A model generated the notes under the pieces. It was not told the origin of the DNA. It searched no databases and saw only the letters and a list, made by a program, of their open reading frames with translations. The position numbers and the translations under genes are program-made. 64,000 nucleotides of DNA from Tetrapisispora phaffii CBS 4417 (taxonomy: Eukaryota > Ascomycota > Saccharomycetes > Saccharomycetales > Saccharomycetaceae): assembly GCF_000236905.1 (NCBI RefSeq), contig NC_016525.1:62001-126000 (forward strand), written 5' to 3'. Of this stretch, positions 2,042-52,199 are shown piece after piece (positions within the stretch are counted from its first letter, which is position 1; each line of letters begins with the position of its first letter).

Positions 2042-4285
2042 ATGGCTAGTGTAAGTCATAATACGTCAAGGATTTCCATGTTGGGTCGTCCTCCTAATCT
2101 CAAAGGGTCTTCTTTCAGAAGTTGTGACAACTGTAACTGTTCTCCTGGTTTACTATCAAGAAACAATAAGCGATCATCTTTACTGTTCAGAAAGTTTGAA
2201 AACACCTTAAGTAGACAGAGATCTTCTAGTATCAATTTCAATGTCAAGGGCTCCAATGCAAGTGTCTATTCTTCCGATGCCTTGTGCAAGACTTCAAAAG
2301 AAATCAATACCAGTGAGAGATTGGCTAGTTTACGCAAACAGATGACTAAATTCGGATTATGTTGCTATATCGTCCCTACTGAGGACGAACACCAAAGTGA
2401 ATATGTCTCGGAGAAAGACGAGAGAAGGTCCTTCATTTCTGGGTTTTCTGGTTCAGCTGGTATTGCTTGCGTCACAAGGGATTTGTTGAATTTCAACGAT
2501 AAGACCGATCCTATTGGAAAATCCATTTTATCGACCGATGGACGTTACTTCAATCAGGCTTTGCAAGAGCTTGATTTCAACTGGTCGTTGCTCAGACAAG
2601 GCGAGGATAAGTTGACTTGGGAGGACTGGTGTATCACTGAAGCTATTGAAATGCTAAAAGGTTTGGGTGTTAACAACACGGATAAGAAACCTTTGAAAAT
2701 CGGTATTGATCCAAAGCTAATCACATATAAGGAATCTTTAACTTTTGAAAAAAAAATTAGAAAATTTTTGGTCGACAACGGCATTATTACCGAAGAAAAA
2801 GCTGCTGAAGAAGCAAACAAATTCGTACAATTAGTTGGCGTAGAAGAAAATTTGATTGATTTAGTTTGGGGAGATTTCGAAGAAGTTCCAAACATGCCGA
2901 CAAATGACTTGATTCTACTATCTGAAGACTACCATGGTGAATCGTTTGCTTCGAAACGTAGCAGGTTATTGGAGAATTTGAGGGAGAACCATCATTTGTC
3001 AGAGTCTAAGGATGACAAAAAGAGTGTCAAGAATTATTACGTTACAGTTGCTTTAGATGAAATTGCATGGTTATTGAACTTGCGCGGTTCCGATATTAAA
3101 TACAACCCAGTGTTTTTCTCATACTTATTAATCAGTGACTCAGATGATGAAACTGTATTATTCTCGAATGCTAAATATGATGACAATATTTCGAAATATT
3201 TGAAAGATAACAACATTACCGTTCAAAAATACGAAGAATTTTGGAGTTCGATAAACGATCTTGCGACCAGTGCCGCCGAATCGAGCCATTTCATCATTCC
3301 TGATAATTCGTCGTGGAACTTGGTTAGAAGCGTAGAGAACAAGAACAAGATGATCCATTCTCCTATCAACGTTATGAAATCTGTTAAGAACGCCACAGAA
3401 ATCAACAATGCTCACAAAGCACAAACAAAAGACGCACTATGCTTAATCCAATTTTTTGCTTGGTTAGAAGACAGATTAGTGAACCACGAGACTTTAATCA
3501 GTGAATATGAAGCTGCTGAAAAATTAGAACAGATCAGAAAGGTTCAAAAGAACTTCATCGGTAACTCTTTTGAAACCATTTCTTCAAGCGGTGCCAATGC
3601 TGCCGTCATCCATTACAGTCCAACGGCCGAGTCTTCCGCCATGATCAACCCATCTAAGATTTATCTATGTGACGCCGGCTCCCAATTTCTAGAAGGTACA
3701 ACCGACATCACAAGAACGATGCATCTAACAGAACCAACCCAAGAAGAAACCACAAACTACACTTTAGTCCTAAAGGGCAACTTGGCCTTAGAGAGAGCTG
3801 TGTTCCCAGAGGGCACCAACGGATACCAACTGGATTGCATAGCCAGACAATTCTTGTGGGAACGCGGCCTGGATTACAGACATGGCACGGGTCATGGCAT
3901 CGGTGCCACTCTGAATGTGCACGAAGGTCCCATTGGCATCCAACTAAAACCACATCTAGTGGATTTCCCCTTGGCTGCCGGCAACATCATCAGTAACGAG
4001 CCAGGGTATTACAAGGACGGTGAATACGGTATAAGAATCGAGAATGACATCTTGGTCAAAGAGACGGAGCCATCGATGCGCTTCGGCGATAAGAAGTTTT
4101 TCTGTTTCGAGAACATGACTCTGGTGCCATACTGCAGAAAGTTGATAGACGTCAGTTTACTAGACCCTGTGGAGTTGAAACAAGTGAATGATTACAACAG
4201 AAAGATCTGGGACAGCCTAGTCAACTACCTACAACCCCAAAGTATCACGTTCAAATATCTAAAGAGAGAAACCTCCCCATTATAA
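2042..4285 (+). CDS. FRA1: Fra1-type aminopeptidase P homologue (M24 family)
   Basis: ATG at 2042 gives 747 aa, matching the roughly 749 aa of S. cerevisiae Fra1. The open frame extends upstream to 1859 but without an ATG, so 2042 is preferred. The order is a Ser/Arg-rich N-terminal extension (CSPGLLSR near residue 33), two creatinase-like N-terminal domains (CCYIVPTEDEHQSEYVSE, SGFSGSAG), then a pita-bread M24 domain. In that domain YLCDAGSQFLEGTTDITRT supplies the two metal Asp, and HGTGHGIG, NEPGYYKDGEYGIRIE and the late FENMTLVPY supply the remaining ligands. The C-terminus is the family's KRETSPL. All metal ligands appear present, so it may be an active cytosolic metallopeptidase. In S. 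cerevisiae Fra1 works with Fra2 and Grx3/4 to pass mitochondrial Fe-S status to Aft1. TPO1 follows in the same direction, as in S. cerevisiae. Confidence 0.95.
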   Translation: MASVSHNTSRISMLGRPPNLKGSSFRSCDNCNCSPGLLSRNNKRSSLLFRKFENTLSRQRSSSINFNVKGSNASVYSSDALCKTSKEINTSERLASLRKQMTKFGLCCYIVPTEDEHQSEYVSEKDERRSFISGFSGSAGIACVTRDLLNFNDKTDPIGKSILSTDGRYFNQALQELDFNWSLLRQGEDKLTWEDWCITEAIEMLKGLGVNNTDKKPLKIGIDPKLITYKESLTFEKKIRKFLVDNGIITEEKAAEEANKFVQLVGVEENLIDLVWGDFEEVPNMPTNDLILLSEDYHGESFASKRSRLLENLRENHHLSESKDDKKSVKNYYVTVALDEIAWLLNLRGSDIKYNPVFFSYLLISDSDDETVLFSNAKYDDNISKYLKDNNITVQKYEEFWSSINDLATSAAESSHFIIPDNSSWNLVRSVENKNKMIHSPINVMKSVKNATEINNAHKAQTKDALCLIQFFAWLEDRLVNHETLISEYEAAEKLEQIRKVQKNFIGNSFETISSSGANAAVIHYSPTAESSAMINPSKIYLCDAGSQFLEGTTDITRTMHLTEPTQEETTNYTLVLKGNLALERAVFPEGTNGYQLDCIARQFLWERGLDYRHGTGHGIGATLNVHEGPIGIQLKPHLVDFPLAAGNIISNEPGYYKDGEYGIRIENDILVKETEPSMRFGDKKFFCFENMTLVPYCRKLIDVSLLDPVELKQVNDYNRKIWDSLVNYLQPQSITFKYLKRETSPL

Positions 4286-4748
4286 TTTTAAATAAACATA
4301 TGTATCTATGAAAGAAATAAGGTAAGCTATATATATATGAAAGCGCTCTGCATAGAGTGAGGTATATACGAGTAAGGGATCTGTATCTATATATATGTAG
4401 TCCCTGTCCATGAGTGATATCTACATGGTTCAGGGGGGTGTTGTTTCTTGAATAATATTACACTAATAATAGATCTAGTAACCGATCCCCCTGATTATGC
4501 CTCAAGAGAATGAGTTATTTTAGAAAATGACTGTTTCGAAATCAACCGGCCAGTAATGTAATGCCGTTAGTCTACTAGATCCTTTTCCTCCTTGGGTAAC
4601 ACTTTACAAGCGGTTACTAAAACTCCGACAGTCTTAGTGTACTCCATCACAGCTCGTCCACAATGATGCCATTGGGCTTGTGTGTGCGTTGTCCAAGGTA
4701 CCCTTCCTTGCGCCTGCGGGACTCCGAACATCGACGACTGGCTGCCTG

Positions 4749-43555: not shown

Positions 43556-44092
43556 ATGGACTCTATGGATTCTCCACTGCAATCGCCAGCCCAGCTCAAG
43601 GTCACCTGGGAGGTGACAAACTCGGAATCTCTAGATATAGACAACACCTCTGTCTGCAAAACAGTCGAACTTAACATATACCCTAGTAACATTAGAGAAA
43701 ACAAGAAGAAGACTATTGTCGCTGAGGTGCTATTCCTCAGCGTCTCCGCATTCGTCGCACTGTATATCAACACGTATCTCAACGATCTGGAGCCTTTGCA
43801 TAAACCGCTAAAGGACCTTACCCCAGATGAAAACCCACTACTCTCTTTCAAGTACATTTTGGCAAGCTCGTTCTTTGTTATGAATCGTTATCTATTTGGT
43901 TTTTCAATGATGTTTATTCTGGCTTATTACGTCATTGTAAGGTTTATTCTTAAATTGCCAAAGGCTTTCCACGACTCACTTATGTTCCTCTTCTCTCTAT
44001 CGTTTGTGAACTATTTCATAAGTGCATCAACTGCAGTCTTCATCAGTGTTCACGCGATAACAAAAACCACAATGTCAGAACCACAGTTCTAA
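43556..44092 (+). CDS. Unrecognised small membrane protein, about three TM segments
   Basis: A 178-aa frame with a good promoter: TATAAATA 90 bp upstream and an ATG in an A-rich context. The N-terminal 55 residues are hydrophilic with Asn/Ser. Hydrophobic stretches lie at about residues 57-76 (VAEVLFLSVSAFVALYI), 99-131 (long, probably one or two helices, with FFVMNRYLFGFSMMFILAYY) and 141-168. No signal-peptide cleavage pattern, metal motif or known family signature is seen. It shares its upstream region with MET17 and sits 180-280 bp from the E-box array, so a link with sulfur metabolism is a reasonable guess. I do not recognise an S. cerevisiae counterpart. Confidence 0.7.
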   Translation: MDSMDSPLQSPAQLKVTWEVTNSESLDIDNTSVCKTVELNIYPSNIRENKKKTIVAEVLFLSVSAFVALYINTYLNDLEPLHKPLKDLTPDENPLLSFKYILASSFFVMNRYLFGFSMMFILAYYVIVRFILKLPKAFHDSLMFLFSLSFVNYFISASTAVFISVHAITKTTMSEPQF

Positions 44093-44388: not shown

Positions 44389-45600
44389 TTACTTGAATAG
44401 TTTTGCCACAGAGATAGCAGTTTCGTTGTTCTTGTTCATCACCTTGGCGACAGCCAGTTCAAAATCTTCTTGTGTTACATGTATTCTTCTCTCTCTTAGA
44501 GCGTACATACCAGCTTCTGTACAGACACCCTTGACATCGGCACCAGAACAGCCATTCATTTTCTCAGCAACTTTCTTCAAGTTGATACCACGAGTTAGAT
44601 TCATCTTTCTAGAATGAATTTTCAAAATTTCAGCTCTAGCGGCAACTGTTGGTGGTGGAAATTCTATTTTTCTATCTATTCTACCTGGTCTCAATAGAGC
44701 TGGGTCTAAAATATCCAATCTATTAGTAGCCATGATAATCTTGATGTTTTTAGAGGTTTCAAACCCATCCAATTGATTTAGTAGTTCCAACATTGTTCTT
44801 TGAACTTCGGAATCACCACCGCCAGAACCTCCTTCAACACGACTAGAACCAATAGAATCGATTTCATCCATGAATATAATAGAAGGGGCATGTTCTCTTG
44901 CCATCACGAACAATTCACGTACCATTCTGGAACCCTCACCAATATATTTTTGCACTAATTCAGCACCTGAAACTCTAATAAATTTGCAGTCTGTGTGATG
45001 TGCAACAGCTCTTGCTAGCAGAGTTTTACCGGTACCTGGTGGACCATATAAGATAACACCCTTTGGTTGGGCAATACCTAAACTTTCAAATAATTCAGGG
45101 TGCTTGACAGGCAGTTCAATAACCTCTTTAATTTCCCTGATTTGTTTAGTTAAGCCACCAACCATATCATAAGTGGAATCAGGAACTTTTTCAACCATCA
45201 TCAATGACACTAATGGATCAGCCTTGTTATCCAAAACTTTATGAAGTAAATAAGAGTCACTCTTCAAGCAAACTCTTTGCGATGGCTTCAACTCTTTAAC
45301 ATTGATATCTGGAGCAACATCAACAATATATTTACCTTCTGGTTGCACTTTCACCAAGACTCTCTTATCAGAGACAACTTTTATCACCTCTCCCACATAA
45401 GAACCAGGCTCTTGTAGTAACCGTAGCTCGTCCTCTATAAAACGAACTTTGTCATTTAAAGCGTTTCTTTGAGCCTCCAGACGACGTAAATTCTCAGTTC
45501 TTGCGTGAACCTTAATCTCTGTCTCTTGAATCTTTTGTTCAAAAAATGGCTTAATACCACTTTCATGGCTATTCATAGTTGCAGTTGCTACACTTGACAT
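44389..45600 (-). CDS. RPT6: Rpt6 (Sug1), 26S proteasome base AAA ATPase
   Basis: 403 aa against about 405 in S. cerevisiae. An N-terminal coiled coil (residues 20-65) and OB domain ([17 protein letters not shown]) precede the AAA module: Walker A GPPGTGKT at 186-193, Walker B FMDEID with Asp245/Glu246, the second region of homology [19 protein letters not shown], and arginine fingers. It ends SVAKLFK, the Rpt6 tail; it lacks the HbYX motif of Rpt2, Rpt3 and Rpt5. Rpt6 unfolds and translocates substrates and is also linked to transcription. The upstream PACE sequence at 45736-45744 indicates Rpn4 control. Gene order left of it differs from S. cerevisiae, where RPT6 is on chromosome VII, marking a block junction after MET17. 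Confidence 0.97.
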
Positions 45601-45735
45601 TGCTCACTAGTTCTTAATCCTTGCGTTAGTTGTCTATTGTTGACCATACCTACCAAATAAACACGTCAAATGTACAACAACTTTTATATATTTATAAAAC
45701 TTACATATGTACCAAATCCATTTAATACCACGAAT

Positions 45736-45744
45736 TTTGCCACC
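45736..45744 (-). promoter_or_regulatory. PACE element (Rpn4 site) for RPT6
   Basis: TTTGCCACC on the plus strand is GGTGGCAAA read toward RPT6, the exact proteasome-associated control element, 136 bp before its ATG. A Reb1-type CGGGTAA follows at 45793-45799, a common partner in constitutive promoters. Confidence 0.85.
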
Positions 45745-45792
45745 CTTTTCAGTTACCCCGTCTGCCACAAAAACAAAAAAATACACAAACGT

Positions 45793-45799
45793 CGGGTAA
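45793..45799. promoter_or_regulatory. Reb1-type site
   Basis: CGGGTAA is the complement of TTACCCG, the Reb1 core. It lies 57 bp beyond the PACE element, about 190 bp from the RPT6 ATG. Confidence 0.55.
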
Positions 45800-46314
45800 C
45801 CAATATTTTGCAGAATCTTACGAATAGCACTCTCGATATAAAAGCCACGCCATCGACGGCAAATAAGTTATAAATACTCTACAAACACACTGTTTCACTG
45901 GATAGTTTTGGTTAAATAATACCCATTGTAGAAGCAGCCTTAATACGAATAACCAAATGAGATGGGGATTAGGAGCGCTACAAAAGAGTGTGATTTGTCA
46001 GCAGACTTTCCGGTTGGATTAGTGCTTTCATTTTGCACCGAGGTGCAGATAGTAAATACCAATTTGAGTAAAGGACTAATGAATTAGGAAATCTACAAAC
46101 TCTAAGTAGACAAGAAAAGAGCCATAAAAATTTTTATAGAGGTTCTCACTCGAATATCGTGTCTGTTTATGTTTATTTTGAGGAGCTCAAGGCAGAACTC
46201 TGTTGACGTTGGTGAATCTAAATAGTGTAAACATCCAACGTTCGTATTTACCGAAAAAATGGTTGTATCTAGAAATAAATGAATACATATACTTACATGG
46301 TTGTTACATGTATT

Positions 46315-46341
46315 TGAAACAACTCTTTCCGCTGTGTTTCA
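46315..46341. promoter_or_regulatory. Two inverted pheromone response elements (Ste12 sites)
   Basis: TGAAACA at 46315-46321 and its complement TGTTTCA at 46335-46341 match the Ste12 PRE core exactly. The two copies face each other with a 13-bp gap, 380-405 bp before the ATG of the surface protein. Paired PREs are the usual minimum for pheromone induction. Confidence 0.7.
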
Positions 46342-46405
46342 AAGTTCGAATTGATTAGAAGTGTATTCATTGTAAATTTCTACTACTGCGTTTTCAGCTT
46401 CAACC

Positions 46406-46435
46406 ATGTAAATTTCCTAATTAGGAAATTTACAT
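46406..46435. promoter_or_regulatory. Palindromic alpha2-Mcm1 a-specific-gene operator
   Basis: A perfect 30-bp palindrome. Its centre is TTTCCTAATTAGGAAA, an ideal symmetric Mcm1 P-box. On each side is ATGTAAAT, the alpha2 half-site (CATGTAA on the left including position 46405, AATGTAA on the right), at the spacing I recall for the STE6-type a-specific operator. It lies 285 bp before the ATG at 46720. In alpha and diploid cells such operators are bound by alpha2-Mcm1 with Ssn6-Tup1 and repress; in a cells Mcm1 activates. Confidence 0.85.
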
Positions 46436-46719
46436 TCGAAATCTGAGACAAGATCTGAAGGAAAAAAGAAACGATAATATGACAGCGATGGGCATCGCAA
46501 TGGATTTTGAGGTTAAAGGTAAATAGGGACTGCGACGGTAATAGTTAGCTAGTTTCTAAGTCAATATGCCAAACACACTGGGACTTTATATATTTCAAGG
46601 AATATATAAAGGGTGACAATATTCTCTAGATGAACGTATGAAACTAAAATGTTACCGGAATTGAGAAATACAAACAAGAGTAAAAAGTCATTAACGGATC
46701 CGACTACCTGAAAGAATTC

Positions 46720-49473
46720 ATGATGTACTGGGCTTATTTGTTTTTCTTATTAGGATTATTCATACAAAATGTTTTAGCAATTGACACAACTACGATTCGT
46801 AGAACAATTGAGTTCACATCCACAATGTGCCCAACATGTGTTACAGAAACACTAGTCCCTGTAACTGTTAGTGACTTTGTTACTTATGTTGTGACAGAAA
46901 CTGACAATATCACTTTCTCGGTGACAACAACAATCTCCATTACATCAAGCACAACTGTAACTGCAAATTACACATCTATTATTACAGATACCGTTGATGT
47001 CACGGAAACTATAGACGCTTGTAATACTGTAAATGTTACAAATACGATTGAAAATACCATTACAACAACTGAAACGGCTGTTGAAACAGAAACACAGACA
47101 TCGACAGCGATTGTTACTTCGACTGCAATTGTGACTTCTACCGAAAAGACAGTTTCTTCATCAATTGTGACATCAACTGTGACAGCTACTGCTACTGTTA
47201 CCAGCACTGAAACTATTACTACCATTTTGAGGTCAACGGATACGGAAATTCTTACAGATACAGTAGATATAACCGAAATATGGACAGAGATTGATGAACA
47301 AGCTGTGACAATTTCAACTACAGCCACGACAACACTTACCACGAGAGAGACAAGTACTGAGGTTACAACAACTACTAAAATTGTTATTGAATCCACTACT
47401 ATGACCTCAATATTCAGCACAACTGAAACATTTTTAACAACCGTAACTGATACTACAGCAGTAACTTCGCTAACAACAAGCACAGTTTTGACTACAGATG
47501 TTATATTTGTTACAGATGTAATTTCGGAAACGCTAATTCAAACAGATCCAACAACAACTACTAAAATTGATTATGAAACCGATACCGTATTCGTAACTTC
47601 CTTAGTTTATTTAACTACAACGAACATCGTAACAGTAGAAACTGATTTGATAAAAACGGTAACTCACACAAATGTTCAAAATCTAACCTCTACAATTACT
47701 ATTGAGCACAGTGAGATTAATACTTCTATAGTGGATCAAACAAGATACTTCACAGAAGACAACACTGTCTACGATACACTTACAATATATGAGACGATTA
47801 ATGTGACAGACTATTTCACAAACAACAACACTGTCTACAACAATATCTATGATACCGTAACGGTCAGTGAAACGATTAAACATTATGTTAACAGTGAAGT
47901 ACCAGCTACATTTTATTTGACAGATACAGAATATAGGACAAATGTTGTTAACATCACAGACACTTCGTACATTGAAAAAGAGCTAATTTTAACAGAAGTA
48001 AATACTGTGATTGTTACAAATACGATACCGACAACAAAGACATTTAATATAACGATCACGGAAATAGATACGGTGACAGAAAACTTAAGTTTAACTCAAG
48101 TTCTTAGAGAGATATTTACAACAACAGAAACAAATGCGGTTAATACAACAGAATTTTCACATATGACGGAAACATTCAGCATGACAGATACTATTGTAAT
48201 TCCAATGACAGATATAATTACAAAAGTGGCTAATATCACATTGACATCAACTACCACTGATATAATAGAAGCTACAAATACTGAAACTTATCTACAAACA
48301 TTCGATTCCACAAGTGAAGTGACAGTGACAGAAACCAATATAATTGTAAATACTGTTGATTACACTAACTTGGAAACTTATGTGGATGTTCTTAACACAA
48401 CTAATTTCATTGACACGATTGAAACGGAATATGTAACTAATACAATTAACAAAACAAACAGGGTTGAAGTGACTGAAACAGTGGATATTACAAATGTCAA
48501 TAGTATCTATGAAACAATATTGGAGACCAATACACTTGATATTACACAACTAATTGAAGAAGTTAACACAATAAATATATATAATAGAGTTAATACTACC
48601 TTAACAATGGAAACGACAGAAACCGTTAAAGAAGCAATTACAACAAATATAATTGGAACTGTTAGAGTGACAGAGACATCGGTTATAACAGAATTTAACA
48701 ATGAAACTTTATCTGAAACAGTGTTCGATATAGATGAGGAAAGAAGTACTGTTAAATTAACGAATACTGTTAACACCATCAATGTTGTAGATGTTACTCT
48801 GACATGTGACACAACCAAATTTATAGATGTGACCCATACTTTTAATAGTATATCAACAGTAAGTGTTATCAATGTCTTTAATTCAACTATTGAAGAGAAC
48901 ACAACAATAACCTTAGATGCCAAAAGTGTTTTGCAAGATAATGAATCTTCTAACGTTTTATGCTCAGAAAAACCATTATATGTACCGATATCTGCATCAT
49001 CTCATAGGACAACCCAAACTAAACCTTCAATTGATAGTTTAACTAAAGTAACTGAAACAATTATTGGCACACCTAGTATTACCTCAAATTCCGTTAGCTT
49101 GTCACAAAAAGAGGTTTTTAATGATGCTAGCACCTTGTCAATCATATCTCTATCGTATAATTCAGAGGAAAGTACATCAGAAATAATTGAAAATACAAAG
49201 TTTTCAAATCAATTATCAAGTGATATCTCTATAACTAGCAGATCGCTTCTACCTGCATCAAATTTACCTCCTTCTGAAATCTCCAATAATGTTTCTAGTT
49301 ATGATATAAGAAGTACAGAAGTTAGTCCTTCAATGACATTAATTTCCAATGAGAGTTCTTCTACTAAGTATGAAACTGGCGCGGCCAAAATATCGACATA
49401 TGAAGGCAAAGCCTCAAAATTAAATTTGAAGGTACCGTCATTTATCGTAACACTATTATACTTGTTACTGTAG
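46720..49473 (+). CDS. Thr-rich GPI-type cell-surface protein, candidate a-specific sexual adhesin
   Basis: 917 aa. Residues 1-20 (WAYLFFLLGLFIQNVLA) form a signal peptide and the last 15 residues (FIVTLLYLLL) a GPI-attachment-type hydrophobic tail. Between them is a mucin-like region dominated by Thr, Val, Ile and Asn, built of irregular T-[ED]-T-V-[DN]-x-T units with many N-x-T/S sequons. It is unusually rich in Glu/Asp at regular intervals. Cysteines are few: a CPTC pair at about residues 37-40, one near 97 and two late in the chain. CPTC also occurs in the Aga1/Fig2 adhesins, but I see no other clear similarity. The promoter has an alpha2-Mcm1 operator and two PREs, so expression is predicted in a cells and induced by pheromone. 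It could be the anchoring or adhesive part of an a-agglutinin. I cannot assign an S. cerevisiae orthologue. Confidence 0.85.
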   Translation: MMYWAYLFFLLGLFIQNVLAIDTTTIRRTIEFTSTMCPTCVTETLVPVTVSDFVTYVVTETDNITFSVTTTISITSSTTVTANYTSIITDTVDVTETIDACNTVNVTNTIENTITTTETAVETETQTSTAIVTSTAIVTSTEKTVSSSIVTSTVTATATVTSTETITTILRSTDTEILTDTVDITEIWTEIDEQAVTISTTATTTLTTRETSTEVTTTTKIVIESTTMTSIFSTTETFLTTVTDTTAVTSLTTSTVLTTDVIFVTDVISETLIQTDPTTTTKIDYETDTVFVTSLVYLTTTNIVTVETDLIKTVTHTNVQNLTSTITIEHSEINTSIVDQTRYFTEDNTVYDTLTIYETINVTDYFTNNNTVYNNIYDTVTVSETIKHYVNSEVPATFYLTDTEYRTNVVNITDTSYIEKELILTEVNTVIVTNTIPTTKTFNITITEIDTVTENLSLTQVLREIFTTTETNAVNTTEFSHMTETFSMTDTIVIPMTDIITKVANITLTSTTTDIIEATNTETYLQTFDSTSEVTVTETNIIVNTVDYTNLETYVDVLNTTNFIDTIETEYVTNTINKTNRVEVTETVDITNVNSIYETILETNTLDITQLIEEVNTINIYNRVNTTLTMETTETVKEAITTNIIGTVRVTETSVITEFNNETLSETVFDIDEERSTVKLTNTVNTINVVDVTLTCDTTKFIDVTHTFNSISTVSVINVFNSTIEENTTITLDAKSVLQDNESSNVLCSEKPLYVPISASSHRTTQTKPSIDSLTKVTETIIGTPSITSNSVSLSQKEVFNDASTLSIISLSYNSEESTSEIIENTKFSNQLSSDISITSRSLLPASNLPPSEISNNVSSYDIRSTEVSPSMTLISNESSSTKYETGAAKISTYEGKASKLNLKVPSFIVTLLYLLL

Positions 49474-49682
49474 TACTGTAGTACATCCCATGCATCCTGT
49501 AATCTATTAAATAAAGTTAATTTAGGAGAATGTTAGCATATCTTAATAACATTTAAAATTTAAATCTTTCTAATCAAGGCCATAAAGCCTATAATTGCTT
49601 TATTATGTTTAGGTAAATGTTTAATATTAAATATTATTTCTGGGATATAAATATAAAAATATTTAGAATTTATCATTTTCAT
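49474..49682. terminator. Convergent 3' region surface-protein gene/CHO2
   Basis: 209 bp, AT-rich, between convergent ends. It presumably holds both polyadenylation regions. Confidence 0.35.
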
Positions 49683-52199
49683 TTAAGAAAAATCGTTCAG
49701 TATCTTTTTTATTTCACATATTCTATTGCAAATTGTTTCAATATCGCCATTAACATTTTTGATATAATCTGTTGATAATTCTATTCCAGTTGAATAGTGA
49801 ATAAATTTCACGAACGCTTTGATATTAAAATATTTATTACCGTTTCCATCAAACTTATTGTCAAGTAAAGATCCAATGTTGATTAAAGTTCTTTTAAAAT
49901 CCTCAAATAGCCTCTCTGGATTATCGGTTTCAAATTTAGGGTATTCAATTTGAATAGGCTGCGAAATTAAAAAAACATTATGACTGTTCTTCGAATGGTA
50001 CCTGAATTCGTAAATACCAGGCTCATAAACTAGAAGATTATTATCAAATATAACAGTACCTTGAATAATACTACCTTTGTCTCTAAATTCGTTTACTGAA
50101 TTACTATTTCTTGGATCAGCTTTATAACTATTTTTACAAGTGGCACTCCAATGACCAAATGAAGAAATTTTTGTCTTTTTGTAATCAGATCTTGTGCTTA
50201 AAACGTTGTATAATCCTATCCAATCCTTAGTATCATAAACTTCCGAGGGTAATTGCCAACTGACTAGGATTCTATTAGGTAGAATACATTTATCTGATCC
50301 ATTACTTTCTACCTTAAGTAAACAGTTAGGAGCTAAGTTTGTTTTAACATCCCTAATTGTATCTTGCATGGCAATGCCCCAGTCCATCAAATTCTCTGCG
50401 TCATGGGAATCTTTCAACTGTTTTTCATGTATAATTTTATTTAGCAATGCTGCTTCTAAGCTATCTAAAACATTAAGTAATGATTTTATTGGCTTTATTT
50501 TTAATAAAGATTTTTCCACCCCAGCCTTTCTCTTGTTTTTACCATACACTTTATCGACATGAGGTTGCTCTATAAATTTATTGAATAGTAGATTGGTTGT
50601 AATCCAAATTCCTACCAGAGTAATATTTTCATGATTGAAATTTGTCATTAGGGCGCTTCCTAATACACCACAATTGCTTAAAAATGCGTCTGGATTATTT
50701 AAGTATCTGAAAATACCTTGGGAGGTTAATTTTCTCTCAATAATGTAATTTGTTAAAAAAAAATCACCATAAAAGTAACCAAAGTCTGAAATTGCTTGTC
50801 TTATTTCATAATTACACCAAATTTGAATGACACAAACAATAATACCGAATATTATATTTACTGTGTTTATCGCATGGTAGTTTTCATACAACTTATACAA
50901 TGTTTGTAAGATCAACAATGTAGTTGTAATAGAAAGTAGGTAATTGTAAATAAACTGCCAATTTTTATAAGAATATATCTGAGTAAATCCATTCTTTAAA
51001 AATGCTTTTGTATATGACCTATATTGCGATTGCTTGTATAGTAAAGCTGAATAGACACTCCAGGATAACAGTTTTGAAGCTGCAGTGACGATAAATAAAT
51101 AGTAACTTCCAGGTTTGCTTTTAACAACCCATGCGCACAAGTATATTACTGACGCTAGAGTGAAAACGTCAGTAAATCTTAATAGTTGGAAATTTTCAAA
51201 ATAAAGACCATTCGAGATCAAAGGTTTGGTGTAATCATTATTTTCTTTTATAATAATATCATCGATGTTATCATTATTATTAGTTAATTTTGAAGAACCA
51301 TATATCTTTTCAATATGTGGGTTTTCAACGTATTTTAAGAATAGAAACTGTAAAATGTGGCCCCATATGGATACTAGAAGAACTTTGTAGTCTCCACACA
51401 AAAGAGAAAACCCGTAGTATCCCAGGTATCCTAATGAGTACATTGGATGTGGTACTATATTAAATACACCATCAAATGTCAATTCAGAGTCTTGTAAAGA
51501 AAAAAAATCACCCCAGTACCAAGCATAATCAGTGACGACACGATGGGCATCCAATTTAATCCAGACGTTTAGCATAACCATAATGATTCCAATTAATGTT
51601 CTAAAATTCAATAGTGACTTGACATAATCACCTTGGTAGTCTGGTAAAGAGAAATACACGAATATGATATAATTTGTAAAATCTTGCATTAAAATCAGAT
51701 CAACAAATTGACGGAACATTAGCCAAATTAAATACTCTGGTGGGTAGGACTCAATATCGAACTCCTCCCCCAATTTAGTTTGGAGCTCAAATTTGCAAAA
51801 TCTAGAGAGATTTGAATTATTCTTTTTATCAAACAATTTATTTTTAATGGCAAAATTTGATAATATCTCATATTTTGATTGCTGATGTAATATATGCCCA
51901 ATACCTACATTATAAGCCAAACGCCATATAGTATATTGTACTAAAAAGAAATATTTAGCAAACTGTACACTATATTTACTTCCAATCCAATAACCAACCA
52001 AAATATCCCCAATGACAGTTAAAGTGACACAGTACTCCAAAAATGACTTTCTTATTGTTGGGTCAAAAAGAGACCTAACCATATCGTGTGTAACTTTGGG
52101 AGTAAACATCACTCCAGAACTACGAGTTCGACAAGTATCCCCAGTTTTCACCGTAACACTATCACTCTTCACATCAACCATAGTATTTGAGTCAGCCAT
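49683..52199 (-). CDS. CHO2: Cho2 phosphatidylethanolamine N-methyltransferase
   Basis: 838 aa (S. cerevisiae Cho2: 869). It begins with a short tail leading into TPKVTHDMVRSLFDPT, a Cho2 hallmark. It has two tandem membrane halves, each ending in a PEMT-type motif (NIVPHPMYSLGYLGYYG at about 250 and the degenerate YLNNPDAFLSNCGVLG at about 500), each followed by an ENPHIEKIYG or EQPHVDKVYG element. The soluble C-terminal domain is beta-rich (WIGLYNVLSTRSDYKKTK). Cho2 performs the first methylation of PE to monomethyl-PE in the ER on the way to phosphatidylcholine; Opi3 does the rest. A UAS-INO-like site lies upstream (52417). PTI1 lies next to it in the same direction, as in S. cerevisiae. 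Confidence 0.96.
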   Translation of the reverse strand: MADSNTMVDVKSDSVTVKTGDTCRTRSSGVMFTPKVTHDMVRSLFDPTIRKSFLEYCVTLTVIGDILVGYWIGSKYSVQFAKYFFLVQYTIWRLAYNVGIGHILHQQSKYEILSNFAIKNKLFDKKNNSNLSRFCKFELQTKLGEEFDIESYPPEYLIWLMFRQFVDLILMQDFTNYIIFVYFSLPDYQGDYVKSLLNFRTLIGIIMVMLNVWIKLDAHRVVTDYAWYWGDFFSLQDSELTFDGVFNIVPHPMYSLGYLGYYGFSLLCGDYKVLLVSIWGHILQFLFLKYVENPHIEKIYGSSKLTNNNDNIDDIIIKENNDYTKPLISNGLYFENFQLLRFTDVFTLASVIYLCAWVVKSKPGSYYLFIVTAASKLLSWSVYSALLYKQSQYRSYTKAFLKNGFTQIYSYKNWQFIYNYLLSITTTLLILQTLYKLYENYHAINTVNIIFGIIVCVIQIWCNYEIRQAISDFGYFYGDFFLTNYIIERKLTSQGIFRYLNNPDAFLSNCGVLGSALMTNFNHENITLVGIWITTNLLFNKFIEQPHVDKVYGKNKRKAGVEKSLLKIKPIKSLLNVLDSLEAALLNKIIHEKQLKDSHDAENLMDWGIAMQDTIRDVKTNLAPNCLLKVESNGSDKCILPNRILVSWQLPSEVYDTKDWIGLYNVLSTRSDYKKTKISSFGHWSATCKNSYKADPRNSNSVNEFRDKGSIIQGTVIFDNNLLVYEPGIYEFRYHSKNSHNVFLISQPIQIEYPKFETDNPERLFEDFKRTLINIGSLLDNKFDGNGNKYFNIKAFVKFIHYSTGIELSTDYIKNVNGDIETICNRICEIKKILNDFS

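Follow-up and report, generated by a model that had tools for sequence, protein, structure and literature searches.

Gene content of the locus

The window analysed here is a 64,000-nucleotide stretch of the Tetrapisispora phaffii CBS 4417 (Saccharomycetaceae) genome, on contig C6 of the 17-contig, 12.1-Mb assembly that served as search space for the genome-wide searches. It contains a gene, referred to here as the window gene, that encodes a 917-residue Thr-rich protein and is preceded by a palindrome with the layout of an operator for the repressor alpha2 and its partner Mcm1. An earlier note, made from the letters of the DNA, had proposed that this gene codes for an a-cell-specific, pheromone-induced cell wall protein. 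The promoter and gene are organised as follows.

46315..46321, + strand: TGAAACA, resembling a pheromone-response element (PRE; Ste12 site), 84 bases before the palindrome
46335..46341, - strand: TGTTTCA, inverted partner element, 64 bases before the palindrome
46406..46435, no strand assigned: alpha2-Mcm1 operator, perfect 30-bp palindrome with alpha2 half-sites TGTAAATT and AATTTACA around the P-box CCTAATTAGG; centre 299.5 bp before the ATG
46585-46595 and 46603-46609, + strand: TATA-like boxes, recognised by eye
46720..49473, + strand: open reading frame (ORF) of the Thr-rich 917-residue protein, a probable glycosylphosphatidylinositol (GPI) wall protein and Aga1-like anchor candidate

The operator and its genome-wide set

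Segment 46406-46435, ATGTAAATTTCCTAATTAGGAAATTTACAT, equals its own reverse complement over all 30 bp, and the perfect palindrome announced by the earlier note is thus exact. Its P-box is flanked on both sides by full alpha2 half-sites at 28-bp spacing, as at STE6. A scoring matrix derived from the genome's six other operators with 28-bp spacing, STE6 included, assigns 41.8 bits to the window site, which ties with the STE6 site; the two have identical sequences and their leave-one-out scores are not independent. The chance expectation for a 41.8-bit site in 12.1 Mb is below the resolution of the calculation. Only one other place in the window exceeds 8 bits (8.3 bits) and it lies inside the ORF of the Thr-rich protein, in line with the claim that no other promoter of the window shows this combination of elements. 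Segment 46406-46435 is an alpha2-Mcm1 operator.

The 16-base core palindrome alone is not specific. It has nine copies genome-wide, and alpha2 TGTA arms are found at two of them, the window site and the STE6 site. Neighbours listed for the seven armless copies include a GFA1-like amidotransferase gene (Pfam), a homeodomain gene and chitin-synthase-like genes (named by eye); these copies look like Mcm1 sites of another regulon. With arms missing at seven of nine, core palindromes cannot all be taken for operators. Arms at 28-bp spacing with up to two mismatches are found at 50 places (eight exact, none with one mismatch, 42 with two) vs 37 for a reversed-pattern control, and one of the eight exact matches lies inside coding sequence. 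The layout TGTA-P-box-TACA with arms 26 to 28 bp apart and no mismatch occurs at 12 places, and at two in the reversed-pattern control.

Nine of these 12 places lie upstream of STE2, STE6, AGA2, AXL1, ASG7, two a-factor (MFA) genes, the window gene and a gene on contig C11, L032. The recognised a-specific genes of this genome thus carry the same operator as the window gene. STE2 (PF02116) and AGA2 (PF17366, E 3.7e-20) are assigned from Pfam, and the STE2 protein is identical to TPHA_0P00260. STE6 has the domains of an ABC transporter and AXL1 those of an M16 peptidase; the names STE6, AXL1 and a-factor are presumptive. The product of the ASG7 candidate has no Pfam match, and we take the gene to be ASG7 from its pattern of cysteines and membrane segments. 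The three other matches were judged to be chance occurrences: C5:429347 is in coding sequence, and C7:554888 and C14:24874 have non-conforming cores.

Leave-one-out matrix scores of the seven 28-bp sites range from 23.9 to 41.8 bits. Extended palindromic Mcm1-type sites that lack TGTA arms were also seen before the GFA1-like gene (L022:4985-5012) and before another gene (L040:1028-1055), with 27.8 and 30.6 bits. Despite these values, the GFA1 site and C5:400627 were classed as extended Mcm1 sites and not counted as operators, as they lack the arms. With two armless sites scoring so high, the matrix by itself does not tell alpha2 sites apart from extended Mcm1 sites, whereas the arms do.

Two further loci merit mention. 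A weaker operator-like site (L033:4998-5025, at C5:422017; 25.8 bits, chance expectation 0.013 genome-wide under a simple base model) precedes a STE14-like ICMT gene by 275 bp and has one TGAAACA no more than 150 bp away; STE14 may be a-specific in T. phaffii. The a-factor genes are in tandem (L031:3423-3524 and 4628-4729), 1.2 kb apart, and encode identical peptides MQPTTQ...FWDPECVIA. Operator-like sites are found in this locus at 3817, 3881, 4040 and 4992. Upstream of the second a-factor gene lie three palindromic elements that resemble operators, of which two lack a full P-box.

Pheromone-response elements and operator position

Two inverted TGAAACA elements upstream of the palindrome had been described in the earlier note. 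Their presence and orientation are borne out, and their distances are 84 and 64 bases instead of the 65-90 given there; the TATA-like box it mentioned is seen as the two runs listed above. The association of operator and PRE extends beyond the window. At least one TGAAACA lies within 150 bp of each of the nine operators (12 elements in 2,949 bp) vs one of eight comparison sites, these being the seven core-only palindromes and C5:429347 in coding sequence, with C7:554888 and C14:24874 left out. Around the seven 28-bp operators 10 TGAAACA are found where their frequency across the same loci predicts 1.0 (Poisson P ~1e-7).

The position of the operator relative to the gene is also shared. The distance from operator centre to ATG is 299.5 bp for the window gene, 296.5 for STE6, 290.5 for L032, 276.5 for the proximal a-factor gene, 264.5 for AGA2, 240.5 for STE2 (counted from the second Met) and 234.5 for AXL1. 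Seven of the nine operators thus lie 234-300 bp from the ATG; that of ASG7 is nearer (~160-180 bp) and that of the second a-factor gene farther (~530 bp).

Regulators and predicted control of the window gene

L038, a MATalpha2 reading frame, gives a match to chain C of 1MNM (MAT alpha-2 transcriptional repressor) that spans residues 61-139 with an E-value of 5.3e-25 and takes in the LVFNV-TQDM stretch preceding the homeodomain. We take 1MNM to be the alpha2-Mcm1-DNA complex and this stretch to be the linker that contacts Mcm1; an alpha2 with such a linker is encoded in the genome. MATa2 is the activator in pre-duplication species. None of ten HMG-box matches from a genome search at E 0.001 lies at the mating cassettes. 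MATa2 therefore seems to be missing, which makes repression by alpha2 the mode to be expected. One study (PMC2253631), which describes a change to purely negative control around the genome duplication, is in agreement with this.

An a1-like homeodomain exon is present at four cassettes (C5:764704, C5:848681, C13:17786 and C17:14599), and an alpha2 match accompanies it at two of them. The C5:764 and C17 copies share an identical stretch of 425 bp, so the a1 end seems to lie within a shared flank.

The shared operator, the PREs, the alpha2 gene and the lack of HMG-box matches at the cassettes together make a-specific, pheromone-responsive control of the window gene very likely. The earlier proposal of such control gains support from an operator common to the recognisable a-specific genes and from the PRE-like element beside nine of nine operators. 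In alpha and a/alpha cells, alpha2 with Mcm1 would shut off the gene downstream of 46406-46435. In a cells, Mcm1 bound to the P-box would turn it on, helped by Ste12 at the paired TGAAACA elements, and alpha-factor would induce it further. Expression of the window gene is thereby predicted to be a-specific.

The window protein and its possible partner

The product of the window gene has the following segments.

46720..46779, + strand: probable signal peptide, residues 1-20; hydrophobic run, helix 2-20 in the AlphaFold model
46780..46839, + strand: mature N-terminus (residues 21-40), IDTTTIRRTIEFTSTMCPTC, which is conserved in the L032 protein as well
46840..48963, + strand: residues 41-748, Thr-periodic region (Thr at odd positions 173, at even positions 34)
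49411..49470, + strand: C-terminal stretch ending in a hydrophobic tail, GPI-type; helix 907-916 in the AlphaFold model

Thr accounts for 25% of the residues, the first 20 residues are hydrophobic and so is the C-terminus. Composition and hydrophobic ends fit a predicted secretion signal, Ser/Thr-rich body and GPI tail, as the earlier note had read this putative wall protein. Similarity searches bring little: there is no Pfam match at E 1 or better, only two weak PDB matches (E 0.099 and 0.24), and nothing at Rfam gathering scores in 45600-50000. Searches for homologues of the window and L032 proteins in a set of 5.8 billion proteins, one of them scoring residues 1-130 only, returned none. The proteins' own records were not returned either, while STE2 gave 84 relatives including that of T. 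phaffii, and the empty result is therefore uninformative; a composition correction applied to the Thr-rich query is a possible cause.

The Thr residues follow a parity rule. In residues 41-748 Thr is found 173 times at odd and 34 times at even positions, whereas Val/Ile/Leu are found 129 times at even and 62 times at odd ones. No 40-residue window starting at positions 21 to 721 has an even Thr majority, so that the phase does not change over ~700 residues; the bias is gone in residues 749-900 (Thr 9 and 8). In the L032 protein the rule holds block by block, the phase changing at least once (61 and 32 overall). The window gene has few tandem repeats at the DNA level, and they are short. An old dipeptide repeat preserved by selection against odd-length insertions and deletions would explain this parity, and so would a two-faced extended stalk.

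L032 encodes a 427-residue Thr-rich protein that has no Pfam match and whose gene has its own alpha2-Mcm1 operator. The mature N-termini of the two proteins share the pattern [IL]DTTTI...STxCPxC. Their N-terminal 22-mers align with a score of 67 vs a null maximum of 54 over 275,370 pairs (also over 338,141 pairs), and their first 100 mature residues, aligned locally, reach 133 vs a maximum of 112 in 2,000 shuffles. The window gene is flanked by genes for a proteasomal ATPase (RPT6-like) and a CHO2-like methyltransferase, and L032 by an NSR1-like RRM gene and a group of RTS3-like, ALG13-like and eIF4G-like genes; the names are presumptive where they go further than the Pfam families. Judged by the S. 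cerevisiae gene order, these flanks would belong to sister blocks of the whole-genome duplication, and the two genes may be an ohnologue pair descended from that event. Between a MET17-like gene and the RPT6-like gene, positions 43556-44092 (+ strand) hold a reading frame of 178 residues that includes several hydrophobic segments and matches no Pfam family.

A candidate anchor for Aga2

The earlier note had left the choice between a-type agglutinin and its anchor. An AGA2 gene with its own operator lies 42 kb from the window gene. By count on its sequence, the encoded protein keeps two cysteines at a distance of 43 residues, as does S. cerevisiae Aga2. As AGA2 already fills the agglutinin role, the window gene is better read as an anchor or accessory wall protein, a reading that rests on this logic and on a short CPxC likeness to Aga1. 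Compared with an approximate fragment of Aga1, the window and L032 proteins both have their best 16-mer on the ICPTC element of that fragment; in the window protein this 16-mer spans FTSxxCPTC, and none of 500 shuffles reaches its score. In S. cerevisiae two disulfides are reported to join Aga2 to Aga1, and an N-terminal 149-residue Aga1 fragment forms the complex (PMC6081942). CPxC would thus be the natural docking candidate.

The hypothesis we favour, with somewhat better than even confidence, is that a functional alpha2-Mcm1 operator drives an a-specific, Ste12-aided GPI wall protein that docks Aga2 through CPTC and is paired with L032. The product would be secreted, heavily O-mannosylated and fixed to the wall by its GPI tail. 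Its N-terminal CPTC would be displayed outward as docking point for Aga2, probably via disulfides, and the window gene would be one of two a-specific anchor candidates, L032 being the other.

Several results weigh against this hypothesis. The Aga1 fragment used for the comparison is approximate, 16 of 500 shuffles reach the L032 score, and a genome search with the same fragment, run with no positive control, gave no match. Neither the window protein nor the L032 protein contains WCPL or CX4C, the latter as judged from its cysteine positions and lack of Trp. Full-length BLASTP of the window protein with L032 gives no significant alignment (E 2.7), and in genome searches each protein retrieves itself and nothing else. 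The likeness of their last 25 residues does not exceed the null, in which 15,855 of 271,908 pairs score at least as high. AlphaFold run with no alignment yields no fold, with a mean predicted local distance difference test score (pLDDT) of 30.7. BAR1, a-specific in S. cerevisiae, is not among the genes identified, though no search was aimed at it. An Aga1/Fig2 gene may also lie elsewhere in the genome. In S. cerevisiae AGA1 presumably lies next to MVD1 and FIG2 next to ABP1; the gene after MVD1 in T. phaffii is a WD40 gene, TUP1-like by eye, so that the window gene does not share the place of AGA1. A cofilin-domain candidate for ABP1 is found at C8:559021.

These points leave room for a product that is a-specific and pheromone-induced and acts as a Fig2-like adhesin or wall-protection protein with no binding to Aga2, the anchor being L032 or an undetected Aga1. 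The missing WCPL and CX4C, an Aga1 likeness reduced to one short motif, the existence of a second candidate in L032, and the roles beyond Aga2 anchoring described for Fig2 and Aga1 (PMC10144551; PMC12363806) all speak for it. Fig2 and Aga1 are nonetheless reported to be expressed in both mating types of S. cerevisiae (PMC12363806), whereas the window gene and L032 have a-specific operators, and CPxC occupies the same mature N-terminal place in both T. phaffii proteins. We regard a Fig2-like role as rather unlikely. An ordinary cell-cycle Mcm1 site of the early cell cycle box (ECB) type, free of alpha2 control, is highly improbable: seven of nine core copies do lack alpha2 arms and lie near GFA1-like, homeodomain and chitin-synthase-like genes, but the window site has both full half-sites at 28-bp spacing, is identical to that of STE6, and of the armless seven a single one has a PRE at 150 bp or less. 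Because the window site is located between divergently transcribed genes, a chance palindrome, or an operator serving the RPT6-like gene (44389-45600), might be invoked. The negligible chance expectation in the genome makes this hardly credible, as do the 299.5 bp to the ATG of the window gene, similar to the 234-297 bp measured for six other operators, and the ~800 bp to the proteasome-ATPase-like gene, where a-specific control would be unexpected.

A bolder version of the anchor hypothesis, which we consider doubtful, is that the canonical Aga1/Fig2-type anchor was lost. Aga2 would be hung instead on a duplicate a-specific pair kept at sister positions since the whole-genome duplication, with the N-terminal CPxC as sole docking device and a ~700-residue stalk in which Thr at every second residue would create a sugar-coated face opposed to a Val/Ile face.

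Relation to known systems and significance

The window protein resembles S. cerevisiae Aga1 in its predicted secretion, Ser/Thr-rich body and GPI-type tail, in the coexistence of an Aga2 gene and apparently in a CPTC near the N-terminus. It differs by the lack of WCPL/CX4C, by the alpha2-Mcm1 operator of its gene and by a position that is not beside MVD1. Like FIG2, the gene would code for a pheromone-induced Thr/Ser-rich GPI wall protein; unlike it, its product lacks the WCPL and CX4C repeats, and FIG2 is reported to be expressed in both mating types (PMC12363806). In its control the window gene resembles the alpha2-Mcm1 repressed a-specific regulon itself (STE2, STE6, AGA2, AXL1, ASG7 and MFA), with which it shares the operator, a similar position and neighbouring PREs. 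Neither AXL1 nor a Thr-rich anchor pair is known to be a-specific in S. cerevisiae.

An a-specific anchor has a precedent, since AGA1 of Lachancea kluyveri is reported to be a-specific and to be induced when alpha2 is lost (PMC6405483, with reference to Baker et al. 2012). That gene, compared here by description only, is likewise of anchor type under a-specific control; L. kluyveri has MATa2 according to the same source (PMC6405483), whereas no MATa2 candidate is found at the T. phaffii cassettes. Literature searches, whose coverage of subscription papers is thin, found, among the papers listed, no work on the window gene in T. phaffii.

The alpha2-Mcm1 and Ste12 regulon can be read from a single yeast genome with little background, and the reading adds two genes that the similarity searches used here do not name. 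If the pair are Aga2 anchors, they would define a minimal anchor with one CPxC. The anchor would then be under a-specific control, as reported in L. kluyveri and not as in S. cerevisiae, which would make the regulatory history of AGA1 testable.

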